Assembly (NCBI GenBank): GCA_021791495.1
Contig: JAJYWN010000076.1
Span: 1 to 33,601 of the forward strand
Direction of reading: 5' to 3'
Origin: Bacillota bacterium
Lineage (GTDB): Bacteria; Bacillota; Sulfobacillia; JAJYWN01
DNA: 33,601 bases
Position numbers and translations under genes: made by a program. Position 1 is the first letter of the stretch, and every line of letters begins with the position of its first letter. The notes beneath the pieces are model-generated. The model was not told the DNA's origin, searched no databases, and saw nothing but the letters and a program-made list of their open reading frames with translations. Positions 2,869 to 21,409 of this stretch are shown here, one piece after another.

Positions 2869-3923
2869 GCCAAGAAAGGACCGAAGCCGCCACCCCGAAA
2901 AAACGGCGGGACGCCCGCCGCAAAGGCCAGGTGGCTCGGAGTTCCGAGCTATCCGGGGCCCTCTCCCTCCTGGCCGCCTTCATGGTGCTGCGCGCCGCGG
3001 GGCCCTGGATCTGGCAGCGCCTGTGGCTGAACATGACCGGGTTCTTCGCCGTGGCGGGAGGCCGCGAGCTGTCTCCGGCCCTGGTGGGGAACATGCTGCT
3101 GCAGGCGGCGGAGGCCACTGTCCTGATGGCCGCCCCTGTGGCTGGGGCGGCCGCCGTGGCCGGCGTGGGTAGCGGGCTATTGCAGACCGGTCTGGTCTCG
3201 GCGCCCAACCTCCTTTCCCCCGACTTCTCGCGCATCGACCCGCTCTCCGGGGCTAAGAGGGTCTTCTCCCGCCGCGCCCTGATGGAGATGGTGAAGGCCC
3301 TGGCCAAAGTAGCCGTGGTGGGCTACTTTGCCTTTCAGGGTGTCCGCGGCGATCTGGGCCGCCTGATGAGCCTGGGTGACATGAAACTGGGACCGGCCGC
3401 GGGTGTGGTCCTGTCCATCGCTTCCGGCATGATGGTCCGGGCGGCGGCGTCTCTGGCGGTCATCGGCGCCCTGGACTACCTGTACCAGTTCTACGAGTTC
3501 GAAATGGGACTCCGCATGACGAAGCAGGAGTTGAAAGAGGAAGCGAAAGAGACCGAGGGCCGTCCCGAAGTGCGCGGGAAGATCAAGGAGCGCCAGCGCC
3601 AGATGGCGCGGAAGCGCATGATGGCGCAGGTCCCCAAGGCGGACGTCATCGTCACCAACCCCACGCACTTCGCGGTGGCGCTGAAATACGATCCGAAACT
3701 GGCCGCCGCCCCAGTCTGCCTGGCCAAAGGCGCCGACCTGGTGGCGGCCAGGATCCGCCAGATCGCCAAGGCCCACCAGATTCCCATCGTCGAAAACCCG
3801 CCGTTGGCTCAGGCCCTGTACCGCACGGTGGAAGTGGGGCGGACCATTCCGTCCGACCTCTACCGCGCCGTGGCCGAGGTCCTGGCTTTCGTCTACCGGC
3901 TGAAAGGCAGGGTACCCGCATGA
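2865..3923 (+). CDS. flhB: Flagellar export switch protein FlhB
   Basis: FlhB switches the export apparatus from rod/hook to filament substrates. 352 residues. The start is MSQERTEAATPKKRRDARRKG, the usual N-terminal signature (T-x-K-R-x-x-x-x-R-x-x-G). Four hydrophobic segments follow, then a charged linker (EFEMGLRMTKQELKEEAKETEG). The C-terminal cytoplasmic domain carries the autocleavage motif NPTH, with Asn265 as the residue cleaved in known family members. GTG start, overlapping the fliR stop as GTGA. The stop overlaps the flhA ATG (ATGA), so the chain of coupled genes continues. Confidence 0.98.
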   Translation: MSQERTEAATPKKRRDARRKGQVARSSELSGALSLLAAFMVLRAAGPWIWQRLWLNMTGFFAVAGGRELSPALVGNMLLQAAEATVLMAAPVAGAAAVAGVGSGLLQTGLVSAPNLLSPDFSRIDPLSGAKRVFSRRALMEMVKALAKVAVVGYFAFQGVRGDLGRLMSLGDMKLGPAAGVVLSIASGMMVRAAASLAVIGALDYLYQFYEFEMGLRMTKQELKEEAKETEGRPEVRGKIKERQRQMARKRMMAQVPKADVIVTNPTHFAVALKYDPKLAAAPVCLAKGADLVAARIRQIAKAHQIPIVENPPLAQALYRTVEVGRTIPSDLYRAVAEVLAFVYRLKGRVPA

Positions 3924-16666: not shown

Positions 16667-16694
16667 TCCAAACACTCAAGGAGGAAAGAGCAAA

Positions 16695-18050
16695 ATGAGG
16701 ATCAACCAGAACATCAGCGCCCTGAACGCGTGGAAGAACCTGACCGGCACCGAGGCCATGATGGACAAGTCCCTGGAACGCCTGTCCAGCGGTCTCCGGG
16801 TCAACCGGGCCGCGGACGACGCCGCCGGACTGGCCATTTCCGAGAAGATGCGCGCTCAGTTGAAAGGCCTGGGGCAGGCCCAGCGGAACGCCGAAGACGC
16901 CATCAGCCTGCTGCAGACGTCAGAAGGCGCCCTGAACGAGACCCACAGCATCCTGCAGCGCGTTCGTGAGCTGGCTGTCCAGTCCGCCAGCGATACCCTG
17001 ACCGATAACGACCGCACCGAGATCCAGCGCGAAGTGGACCAACTGGTGTCGGAAATCGACCGTATCGCCACCACCACCGAGTTCAACACCAAGAAACTGT
17101 TGAACGGCAGCGCGGGCGTGTCCGTGACCACCAGTGATGACACCAAGTTCGGCAACATGACCGCCACGGGCGACACCGGATCCGGTACCATCTCCTTCTC
17201 GGCCGCCACCGTCGCCACTCAGGCCACCAAAGACTCCACCCAGACATACGTGGCCGCCACGGACGCGACGGCCGCCGACAGCACGATCACCTTCAACGGT
17301 GAGGCCTTCAGCGTTGCCTCCGGCTCCACGGTTCAGACGGTCATCGACACCATCAATAACAAGAAGAACACGACCAACGTCGAAGCCTACTGGGATGTGG
17401 ACCACGTTTCCTTGCGGAGCCTGTCGTCCGGTTCCGCCGCCTACATCGACGTCACCGCCGCAGGTGCCGGGGCTCTGGTCGGCATCGCGGCCACCAAGGC
17501 CACCGGCGCCGACGCCACCGTCACCACGGCGGACGCGGGCTTTGCCTCCACGGCCAGCGGCAATAAGATCACCGTCACGGCCGGCACCTACAAGGGTCTG
17601 ACGTTCGACGTCAAGGCCGCCGTGGCCGCCGCCACCTCCATCACCGTGGGCGCCAACAACTCGCTGTCCCTGCACGTCGGCGCCAACACCGACCAGAGCG
17701 TGTCGGTGGCCATCAACTCCATGACCGCTTCGGCCATCGGTGTGAACTCCGTCAGCGTGTCCAGCAAGACCGCTGCCAACGACGCCCTGGCCACCATCGA
17801 TACGGCCATCACCAAGGTCTCGTCCGAACGGGCGAAGATCGGCGCCATCCAGAACCGCCTGGAGCATACCATCGCGAACCTGGGCACGGCCGCCGAAAAC
17901 ATGACCGCCGCCGAGTCCCGTATCCGCGACGTCGATATGGCGCAGGAGATGTCCGCCTTTACCCGCAGCCAGATCCTGATGCAGGCCGGCACGGCCATGA
18001 TGGCACAGGCCAACCAGAAGCCCCAGACCGTCCTGCAACTCCTGAAGTAA
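16695..18050 (+). CDS. hag: Flagellin (filament subunit)
   Basis: Flagellin is exported by the type III gate and polymerises into the filament. 451 residues from the ATG at 16695, preceded by AAGGAGG 10 bases upstream; the frame stays open upstream but lacks the family start. The N-terminal D0/D1 part begins MRINQNISALNAWKNL and has LSSGLRVNRAADDAAGLAISEKMRAQ. The C-terminal part has ERAKIGAIQNRLEHTIANL and AAESRIRDVDMAQEMSAFTRSQIL, ending QTVLQLLK. The middle (residues about 140-355) is variable, Thr/Ala-rich and beta-prone, so it is the exposed D2/D3 region. It probably forms its own transcript. Confidence 0.98.
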   Translation: MRINQNISALNAWKNLTGTEAMMDKSLERLSSGLRVNRAADDAAGLAISEKMRAQLKGLGQAQRNAEDAISLLQTSEGALNETHSILQRVRELAVQSASDTLTDNDRTEIQREVDQLVSEIDRIATTTEFNTKKLLNGSAGVSVTTSDDTKFGNMTATGDTGSGTISFSAATVATQATKDSTQTYVAATDATAADSTITFNGEAFSVASGSTVQTVIDTINNKKNTTNVEAYWDVDHVSLRSLSSGSAAYIDVTAAGAGALVGIAATKATGADATVTTADAGFASTASGNKITVTAGTYKGLTFDVKAAVAAATSITVGANNSLSLHVGANTDQSVSVAINSMTASAIGVNSVSVSSKTAANDALATIDTAITKVSSERAKIGAIQNRLEHTIANLGTAAENMTAAESRIRDVDMAQEMSAFTRSQILMQAGTAMMAQANQKPQTVLQLLK

Positions 18051-18689: not shown

Positions 18690-20525
18690 ATGTCGTCAGG
18701 TATCAGGCTCACGGGTCTCGTTTCGGGGCTGGATTCCGACGCCCTGGTGGCCCAGTTGATGGCCCTGGAGCGCAAACCCTTGGACGCGCTGAAGAAACAG
18801 CAGGACGATCTGAAAGCCGTCCGGGACATCTGGAAAGACATCAACACCAGGCTGGCCAACCTGCAGGGAAATGCGGCCTCGCTGGCCTCCAAAACCACCT
18901 TCTTCGCCAAAATGAGTCCCTCGACCGATGACACCGTGGTTACCGCGTCGCCTTCCAGCGCCGCGGCAACAGGCGTTTATGAGATGGTCGTCACCGCCAT
19001 CGCCCGGTCCCAGGTGGTCACCAGTGCCGCCCAGGCCAGCAGCACGACAGGGCTGGGACTGGCCGGCACGGTGACCATCAACGGCAAGAACGTGACGGTG
19101 ACGGCCAGCGATTCCTTGGAGAGCGTGCGGGACCGGATCAACGGTACCGCCGGCATCAACGTCACCGCGTCGGTGGTGAAGGTCAACGCCACCGACTACA
19201 AACTGATCCTCACTTCCTCGTCCACCGGCACCGCCAACGCCATGACCATGGTCGACGGCGGTGGGGTCCTGGCCGGGCTCGGCCTTCTCTCTGGCGGCGT
19301 TCCCAACACGATTCAGGCCGCCGTGGACGCCCAGTTCACGGTGAACGGGATCTCCGTGACGCGCAGTTCGAACACGGTGGACGATGTGGTGCCAGGGCTG
19401 TCCTTGAGCCTCAAGAAGGGCGGAGGGGCCTCCGCCACCATTGAAGTGAAACCGGACGTCAACCCCGCCGTTGGGGCGGTCAAGGCTTTCGTGGACCAGT
19501 ACAACTCCGTGGTGGATTTCCTCACCAGCAAGATGTCCTATAACCCCGACACCAAGGTGGCGGGGCCTCTTCTGGGCGACACCACCGCCGGCCTGCTTTT
19601 GCAGGACATTCGACGGATGACCACCGGCAGCGTGGCCGGCTTGCCCATGACCATGAACAACCTGCAGCAGGTGGGCATCACCACCGGCGTGTGGGGCGGT
19701 TCCACCGGGAAAGAGGGAAAACTCACCGTCGATGAGGCCAAGCTACGCTCGGCCCTGACGGCGGACCTGACCAGTGTGGCCAAGCTCTTCGGGGCCGTCG
19801 ACAACAACGTGGCCCTAGCGTCCTCCGGCGCCACGGCCACCGCCAGCAGTGAGTTGGACGCCGCCCACGCCGCCTCGGGCCTCATCAATGGGGTGACCAG
19901 TTCCGACCGTTGGGGGACCGACGGCGGTGGCTGGCAGGACAACACCCTAGGTGTCTTCCCAGATTACGTGGACATCGATTTCGGAGCGGTGAAAACCATC
20001 GACCGAATCGACCTCTACACTATTAACTCCGCGACCCTTCCACCCGAAACATATGGTGTAAGAGATTTCAACCTGAAGTACTGGAATGGCACGGACTGGG
20101 CGCTGCTGGCCTCCGTGGCCGATAGTACCCGGAGTTCGGTCAGCCAGACCTTCGACCCGGTGGACACATCGAAGATCCGGGTGGAAGTGACCAAGGTCAA
20201 CGGCGCCAATGACTACACCAGGCTGGTGGAAGTCGAGGCCTACGAAAAGAACTATGGTGTGGCCCATCTGCTCTCCGATTACCTGACGGGTTACACTAAG
20301 GCCGGCGGAGTCCTTCCGGGGCGCCAGGATTCCCTGGACAAGCAAATCAAGCGCCTGGATTCCCAGATTTTAAGGACTGAAGCCCGCCTGGCCGACCGGG
20401 AAGAACGCCTGCGGAAAGAGATGACCGACCTGGAGAAGGTCATGTCCTCTCTGCAAAGTCAGGGGCAGTGGTTGGCCAGTCAGTTGGGCAACTTGCCGTC
20501 CATGAGTTCGGTGCAGAAGAAGTAG
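18690..20525 (+). CDS. fliD: Filament cap protein FliD with an inserted F5/8 type C (discoidin-like) domain
   Basis: 611 residues from the ATG at 18690, chosen because AAGGAGG lies 8 bases upstream; the in-frame GTG at 18672 precedes that site. FliD caps the filament and promotes flagellin folding. The N-terminus (GLVSGLDSDALVAQLMALERKPLDAL) and the C-terminal coil (LDKQIKRLDSQILRTEARLADREERLRKEM, residues about 549-578) are standard. Between KLFGAVDN and YGVAHLLSDYL, residues about 372-518 form a separate module: NVALASSGATATASSELDAAHA, then DRWGTDGGGW, DYVDIDFGAVKTIDRIDLYT, YWNGTDWALL, SKIRVEVTKV and LVEVEAYE. This is the F5/8 type C/CBM32-like pattern of bacterial surface and phage-tail carbohydrate binders. 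The insert has locally lower GC. The cap call is secure; ligand binding is inferred. Confidence 0.95.
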   Translation: MSSGIRLTGLVSGLDSDALVAQLMALERKPLDALKKQQDDLKAVRDIWKDINTRLANLQGNAASLASKTTFFAKMSPSTDDTVVTASPSSAAATGVYEMVVTAIARSQVVTSAAQASSTTGLGLAGTVTINGKNVTVTASDSLESVRDRINGTAGINVTASVVKVNATDYKLILTSSSTGTANAMTMVDGGGVLAGLGLLSGGVPNTIQAAVDAQFTVNGISVTRSSNTVDDVVPGLSLSLKKGGGASATIEVKPDVNPAVGAVKAFVDQYNSVVDFLTSKMSYNPDTKVAGPLLGDTTAGLLLQDIRRMTTGSVAGLPMTMNNLQQVGITTGVWGGSTGKEGKLTVDEAKLRSALTADLTSVAKLFGAVDNNVALASSGATATASSELDAAHAASGLINGVTSSDRWGTDGGGWQDNTLGVFPDYVDIDFGAVKTIDRIDLYTINSATLPPETYGVRDFNLKYWNGTDWALLASVADSTRSSVSQTFDPVDTSKIRVEVTKVNGANDYTRLVEVEAYEKNYGVAHLLSDYLTGYTKAGGVLPGRQDSLDKQIKRLDSQILRTEARLADREERLRKEMTDLEKVMSSLQSQGQWLASQLGNLPSMSSVQKK

Positions 20526-20571: not shown

Positions 20572-20997
20572 GTGTACGAAACGGCTGCGGAAACCTACCG
20601 GCGGGTGAAAGTCACCACCGCCAACGGAGGAAACTTGGTGGTCCTCCTGTACGAGGCGCTCTTGACGAACATGAAGCAATCGCGGTCGGCGCTGAACGCG
20701 GGATACACAGAGAAAGCCCACCGCCACCTCATCCGCGCCCAGGAGATCCTGAGTGAGCTGTCCTGCTCATTGGACATGAGCGCGGGGTCCGTGGCTCAGA
20801 ACTTGATGGCCCTTTACCACTACTGTGGCGGCTTGCTGGTGAAAGCGAATCTGAAGAAGCAGGCCGGCCCGGTGGAGCAGGCGATCGCCATCATCGCCCC
20901 GCTATTCGACGCCTGGCGTCAGGTCACGACCATGACGGCCGCCGCCGAGGACAATACCAACACAGCCACCAGTTATCGCATGGTGGCCAGCGACTGA
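20572..20997 (+). CDS. fliS: Flagellin chaperone FliS
   Basis: FliS binds the C-terminus of flagellin, preventing premature polymerisation and delivering it to FlhA. 141 residues. The N-terminus has AAETYRRVKVTTANGGNLVVLLYEALLTNMKQS (residues about 4-36), matching the family YxxxxVxTAxxxxLixmLYdg pattern. The rest is helical, with LIRAQEILSELSCSLDMSAG. The GTG start at 20572 follows GGAGGAGG with good spacing. The C-terminus is slightly longer than usual, ending in a Thr/Ala-rich tail. The position after fliD is typical. Confidence 0.94.
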   Translation: MYETAAETYRRVKVTTANGGNLVVLLYEALLTNMKQSRSALNAGYTEKAHRHLIRAQEILSELSCSLDMSAGSVAQNLMALYHYCGGLLVKANLKKQAGPVEQAIAIIAPLFDAWRQVTTMTAAAEDNTNTATSYRMVASD

Positions 20998-21016
20998 ACG
21001 GGAAGGGGTGGCCGGC

Positions 21017-21409
21017 ATGATTAGCCCGGAGCAACTGATGGACATAGGAACAACCCGCTCGGCCGAAAGGGACTATGACGACCTCCTCCGAGCGTCACAG
21101 GACCTCACTTGGGCCGCCGCCCGCGGTGACATGTCGGGGGCCCAGGCCGCTCTGACGCGGCGCGCCACCATCATGCGGGCCATCGAACGGAGTCTGGCCG
21201 GAGGGCAGAAGAACCCGGCCTCGGCGGCGGGTATCCTCACCACCATTCTGGAACTGGACCGTCAGGTCTCCGAGACCTGGCAGAAAAGAACGGCGGCCAT
21301 CACCAGTGAGCTGGAGAAAATCAGCGCCGGTCGGCAGGCCGGCCGGGCCTACCGGGTCGCGGTGGGCATGGGCATCCCGCTGCCGCGGTTTTTCGACGAC
21401 CGGCGTTGA
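21017..21409 (+). CDS. FliT-like small helical protein
   Basis: 130 residues from the ATG at 21017 (GGAAGGGG 8 bases upstream; a GTG at 21008 overlaps that site and is less likely). Entirely helical by composition: YDDLLRASQDLTWAAARGD, LTRRATIMRAIERSL, then LDRQVSETWQKRTAAITSELEKI. This fits FliT-type export chaperones, which follow fliS and bind FliD in other bacteria. Similarity is weak, as is normal for this family, so the call is mainly positional. It is the last gene before a large hairpin. Confidence 0.6.
   Translation: MISPEQLMDIGTTRSAERDYDDLLRASQDLTWAAARGDMSGAQAALTRRATIMRAIERSLAGGQKNPASAAGILTTILELDRQVSETWQKRTAAITSELEKISAGRQAGRAYRVAVGMGIPLPRFFDDRR

Follow-up and report, generated by a model that had tools for sequence, protein, structure and literature searches.

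The flagellar filament cap protein FliD of a member of the Sulfobacillia (Bacillota, lineage JAJYWN01; assembly GCA_021791495.1, contig JAJYWN010000076.1, positions 1 to 33,601 of the forward strand) is interrupted by a domain of the F5/8 type C (discoidin) family, which raises the questions of what such a module does on a filament cap and how it came to reside there. The window, as the term is used here, is the whole 33,601-nucleotide stretch that was analysed. Within the window, fliD is part of a flagellar and chemotaxis gene cluster in which (i) fliP, fliR, flhA, rod genes, flgK, a flgL-like gene, fliW and flagellin lie 5' of fliD, and (ii) fliS, a fliT-like gene, cheW-like and cheA-like genes, cheD and cheB lie 3' (Table 1). 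FliD_N (PF02465, 77.7 bits) and FliD_C (PF07195, 165 bits) both match far above their cut-offs, the FliD_C match being broken into two stretches and a PF00754 match falling between the FliD_N and FliD_C parts. Cysteine is absent from the whole FliD, which suits a protein that is exported unfolded, and from 20 of the 24 FliD modules compared.

Table 1. Features of the fliD locus, with coordinates in the window.
Feature	Coordinates	Strand	Basis
flagellin	16692..18050	+	PF00669 and PF00700
fliD, filament cap protein, 611 aa	18690..20525	+	start = ATG 18690 (MSSGIRLTG); PF02465 and PF07195; core fold Z 22.0 to 5h5v
FliD residues 1-371: D0-N helix, D1, head D2/D3, D1 to ..VAKLFGA	18690..19802	+	AlphaFold2 model; alignment with Salmonella and E. 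coli FliD
Inserted F5/8 type C / discoidin module, residues 372-521 (NNVALAS..VEVEAYEKN)	19803..20252	+	junctions versus insert-free FliDs; profile A1 223 bits; domain model Z 18.8 to 4zy9
PF00754 F5_F8_type_C match, residues 383-515	19836..20234	+	41.1 bits, cut-off 28.2
Loop WGTDGGGWQDNTLGVFPDYV (residues 408-427), a conserved hallmark of the FliD-module subfamily	19911..19970	+	column conservation, 24 FliD modules
FliD residues 522-611: last D1 helix and D0-C coiled coil	20253..20522	+	model helices 524-536, 541-606; aligned with Salmonella FliD 385-466
fliS, flagellin export chaperone	20572..20997	+	PF02561 109 bits
fliT-like chaperone	21008..21409	+	PF05400 30.4 bits, cut-off 29.5

The insert amounts to a full F5/8 type C module of the discoidin, CBM32-like kind. 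Its PF00754 match spans positions 2-127 of the 127-position Pfam model, PF22633 also matches residues 399-498 (28.2 bits, just over the cut-off of 27.8), and the module is the single PF00754 match in the 4.2 Mb genome assembly. The initial annotation had described a complete F5/8 type C domain placed after the FliD core and before the C-terminal coil, and not general to FliD proteins. This description holds throughout: the Pfam scan and the AlphaFold2 fold agree on the F5/8C/CBM32 family, the Pfam model is covered almost end to end, the bounds differ by at most two bases from those first proposed, and comparison of homologues with and without the insert finds most relatives to be free of the module. 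Conservation among the 24 FliD modules peaks in two loops, at residues 408-427 and 443-460. A further subfamily motif, V-T-G-N-T-x-G, is degenerate in the window FliD (residues 476-483, VADSTRSS, window positions 20115-20138).

The predicted structures are consistent with a discoidin domain carried on a FliD core. In the full model (AlphaFold2 on FliD with five relatives, mean pLDDT 82), the core has a D0-D1 helical leg and a D2-D3 beta head and matches E. coli FliD 5h5v over 338 residues with the Z-score listed in Table 1, as well as the Salmonella cap 9gnz (Z 20.6), while residues 370-520 match chitosan-binding discoidin modules (Z 14.4). The module modelled in isolation (pLDDT 77.6, pTM 0.78) adopts the discoidin jelly-roll fold and superposes on 4zy9, a chitosan-binding module of Paenibacillus IK-5, at 1.6 Å rmsd over 129 residues; it also resembles galactose-, fucose- and Lewis-antigen-binding modules (Z 16-17.6). 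A sequence-profile search of the PDB independently returns CBM32 and chitosan-binding modules. Model confidence is low at residues 396-420 and, thus, the apical loops are poorly defined.

The insertion site of the module is the D1 leg loop, between an LF motif and the last D1 helix. Insert-free relatives read ..VxxLFxx-(short loop)-GVA.. at this junction; FliD proteins with the insert read ..LFGA, then NVALA .. EVEAYxKN, then GVA.., a junction common to 22 FliD proteins. By alignment, residues 371 and 522 of the window FliD equate to residues 376 and 385 of Salmonella FliD, which flank the loop 377-384, and to residues 417 and 557 of Campylobacter jejuni FliD, in which the D4 domain (residues about 418-556) fills the same D1 loop. 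The C. jejuni D4 domain, known from cryo-EM (PMC7316729; PMC12221982), is remote from the cap cavity and has D3 of the adjacent subunit on one side and the FlgL/junction-subunit layer on the other (PMC12221982). Occupation of the D4 loop, together with the position of D4 clear of the cavity, points to a collar below the cap plate and not to a crown upon it; thus, the lectin-like crown at the filament tip envisaged initially is probably the wrong geometry. Judged by the common insertion point and by the pentameric cap known elsewhere (PMC12221982), five modules would probably form a ring beside the distal filament, under the plate.

The FliD modules form a subfamily that is widespread yet patchy. 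FliD was found in 51 of 61 genomes surveyed (the window's own and 60 relatives), with the module at the leg site in 10, at a head site in two, and absent from the rest. A profile of the module matched 16 of 154 genomes of the class, every match being in FliD, and among 398 genomes of the phylum it matched FliD of four further families at the same site (96-165 bits), whereas F5/8C matches outside FliD in these 398 genomes all scored below 46 bits. These matches rule out a module peculiar to the window genome. The module is also present in FliD of four of 17 genomes of Candidatus Aerophobetes, and all bacterial matches above 71 bits in the searched genomes are in FliD. The Aerophobetes FliD open frames L072, L106 and L107 are about 1070 residues long, and L072, the one scanned with Pfam, has several Flagellin_IN repeats in addition to the discoidin module at the leg site. 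The head-site modules occupy residues 199-346 of L032 (genome G031) and 193-346 of L033 (genome G021), at a point that aligns between window residues 201 and 206; near this head site, the FliD heads of L034 and L036 are enlarged by an apparent duplication of a D2/D3-type unit. Two nearer members of the subfamily were found outside FliD and rule out its restriction to this protein: (i) L102 (positions 3333-3830, + strand, of IMGVR_UViG_3300035181_001680), a stand-alone discoidin protein of 166 residues from a phage virion gene region that belongs to the same subfamily (118 bits to the FliD module profile, 40% identity), and (ii) L108 (Aerophobetes, genome G550), which resembles FAD-dependent oxidoreductases and whose C-terminal discoidin domain scores 65-70 bits against the profile. 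Phage and plasmid collections searched for a donor yielded none among the phages and one weak match from Nonomuraea, and PHROGs returned no informative match.

The history of the insertion was traced on a tree of the FliD core from which the module had been removed. Leg-site bearers require nine changes on this tree compared to a mean of 17.8 after shuffling, with starred branches forcing at least five, in counts that do not separate gain from loss. A single clade of leg-site bearers is rejected (p-AU 0.0013), and the module-free L012 is placed close to L003 and L004, which bear the module. The two head-site FliDs cluster in both the core tree (97, starred) and the module tree (86/97); the module tree is star-like, such that a move from the leg site and a separate origin of the head copies are indistinguishable. 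Module and core diverge at similar rates, and their identities are correlated, with a Mantel r of 0.78, or of 0.54 in the thinned set (p 0.001). The window module shares 52% identity with the module of another family but only 38-41% with those of its order-mates, although the window FliD core shares 50-53% with the order-mates and 38% with that other family; either the module of the order-mates changed fast or one module was exchanged. The simplest account is one old leg-site insertion followed by many losses, perhaps with gene transfer, plus one head relocation or second gain.

The module is therefore old and patchy and not recently acquired, contrary to the acquisition initially suggested from its low GC content. 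The reported dip is real (48% GC near 19999-20090, among the lowest 0.5% of the 90-bp stretches of the window, with a GC3 of 0.58 over codons 437-467, inside the module), but it extends for only about 90 bp; the whole insert is ordinary at 60% GC and a GC3 of 0.77, between those of its flanks (0.85 and 0.74), and composition lends a recent arrival no support. A recent horizontal acquisition of a carbohydrate-binding module by one FliD gene, although the local dip and the phage-encoded member of the subfamily would fit it, is extremely unlikely given an identical junction in 22 FliD proteins of several families and two phyla and the correlated divergence of module and core.

The role favoured here for the module, which we regard as an evenly balanced proposition, is that of an outward-facing, five-copy collar on the cap with an accessory glycan- or surface-binding function. 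FliD would be exported unfolded through the filament and the module would fold outside; in the pentameric cap, five modules would encircle the outside under the star-shaped plate, leaving free the cavity in which flagellin folds. The two ends of the module are adjacent in the leg loop, so its distal loops should face outward; their most likely target there would be a polysaccharide or another surface ligand. The filament tip would thereby gain multivalent weak adhesion or surface recognition while filament growth proceeds undisturbed. FliD is known to mediate adhesion to mucin in other bacteria. The nearest solved structures, chitosan- and galactose-type sugar binders, would support such a collar, a discoidin module from Paenibacillus, taken alone, binds laminarin and chitin (PMC2789033), and the C. 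jejuni D4 domain has been postulated to be related to heparin binding (PMC7316729). Also in its favour, filament compatibility in Pseudomonas aeruginosa FliD is set by the terminal helices of D1, and the head can be replaced (PMC8533109); conservation of the module peaks in two loops, and no other PF00754 protein is present in the genome. By contrast, F5/8C domains as a group bind sugars, proteins or phospholipids, so the fold leaves the ligand unfixed. Four further points weigh against the collar: a leg site under the plate has less exposure than one in the head, loops 408-427 and 443-460 may owe their conservation to a structural role, the V-T-G-N-T-x-G motif is degenerate in the window FliD (476-482, VADSTRS), and strongly selected adhesins often outpace their scaffold, yet the module diverges here at about the rate of the core. 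More tentative, and somewhat short of balanced, is the broader proposal of a five-valent lectin collar at the flagellar tip, evolved in a FliD lineage of several Bacillota families and Aerophobetes, in which the module is movable between the leg (the D4 site) and the head and FliD serves as a modular chassis for glycan recognition.

A rather unlikely alternative to the binding collar, but the closest to it, is a structural brace in which the module would touch D3 of the adjacent FliD, the distal flagellin and FlgL (by their outer domains or glycans), or both, and so sets the plate angle and the grip of the cap, the lectin fold being incidental or reading the bacterium's own filament. The C. 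jejuni D4 domain would be a precedent: set in the same loop, it is flanked by D3 of the adjacent subunit and by FlgL, and a wider D1-D2 angle has been attributed to it (PMC12221982). A constant partner would account for best-conserved loops common to distant FliD proteins; the correlated divergence of module and core also fits. A brace is harder to reconcile with the module-free FliD of most relatives, even the close L012 beside L003 and L004, with the presence of the module in the head of two other FliD proteins, where its contacts would differ, and with the lack of any glycosylation gene among the window open reading frames scanned.

If the leg loop simply tolerates insertions, the module could instead be a neutral passenger with no selected role, and its on-and-off occurrence across the FliD tree would fit; but the fold and loop motifs have been retained between families and in two phyla, mostly at 30-53% identity, which makes this quite unlikely. 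Contact with a membrane is still less probable. F5/8C domains can bind phospholipid (PMC2789033) and the module might, like the C2 domains of factors V and VIII, bind lipid and coordinate the cap with a flagellar sheath, a role that has been suggested for Vibrio FliD and its helical D4; deletion of D4 from Vibrio fliD results in sheath extensions that are empty (PMC13106801). However, an Omp85 homologue is absent from the window genome, while seven control genomes were matched; no outer membrane is thus indicated and a membrane sheath is very unlikely, and the nearest solved structures are carbohydrate-binding modules. The window genome has 71 SLH-domain matches and no Omp85, and appears to be that of an S-layer-rich, single-membrane Bacillota.

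Accessory domains of FliD are already known from Campylobacter, Vibrio and Helicobacter, and the discoidin type is a new variant. A literature search found no paper that joins FliD or the flagellar filament with a discoidin, F5/8C or inserted carbohydrate-binding domain, in a coverage that mostly leaves out subscription journals and with domain databases that may list the architecture. The known extra domains have mostly unknown roles, whereas the usual job of the family found here, the binding of ligands and mostly of carbohydrates, is well understood; its occurrence at the Campylobacter D4 loop thus makes what the cap binds directly testable. The D1 leg loop emerges as a tolerated insertion site at which accessory cap domains of unlike sequence occupy one position and, if the collar is real, the tip of the flagellum may also serve to recognise surfaces and stick to them.

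The closest counterpart is the D4 domain of C. jejuni FliD (PDB 9GSX, 6SIH), an accessory globular domain of similar size in the same D1 loop. It belongs, however, to a distant phylum, and the module profile finds no sequence match in the C. jejuni chains. Kinship of the two folds is a separate matter, on which the absence of 9gsx from the 50 structure matches listed for the module model carries no weight. The Vibrio FliD D4 and Helicobacter FliD D4-D5 domains are likewise extra FliD domains with a proposed non-assembly role, but the Vibrio D4 is helical, sits atop the head and is linked to the membrane sheath (PMC13106801). The CBM32/discoidin modules of Paenibacillus sp. IK-5 (4ZXE, 4ZY9, 4ZZ5), NanJ (2V72) and EndoD (2XQX) share the fold (Z 17-19) and PF00754 with the FliD module, but are only about 18-26% identical to it and reside on secreted enzymes and not on flagellar axial proteins. 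The phage discoidin protein L102, by contrast, is of the FliD-module subfamily, yet stands alone in a virion gene region, outside FliD.
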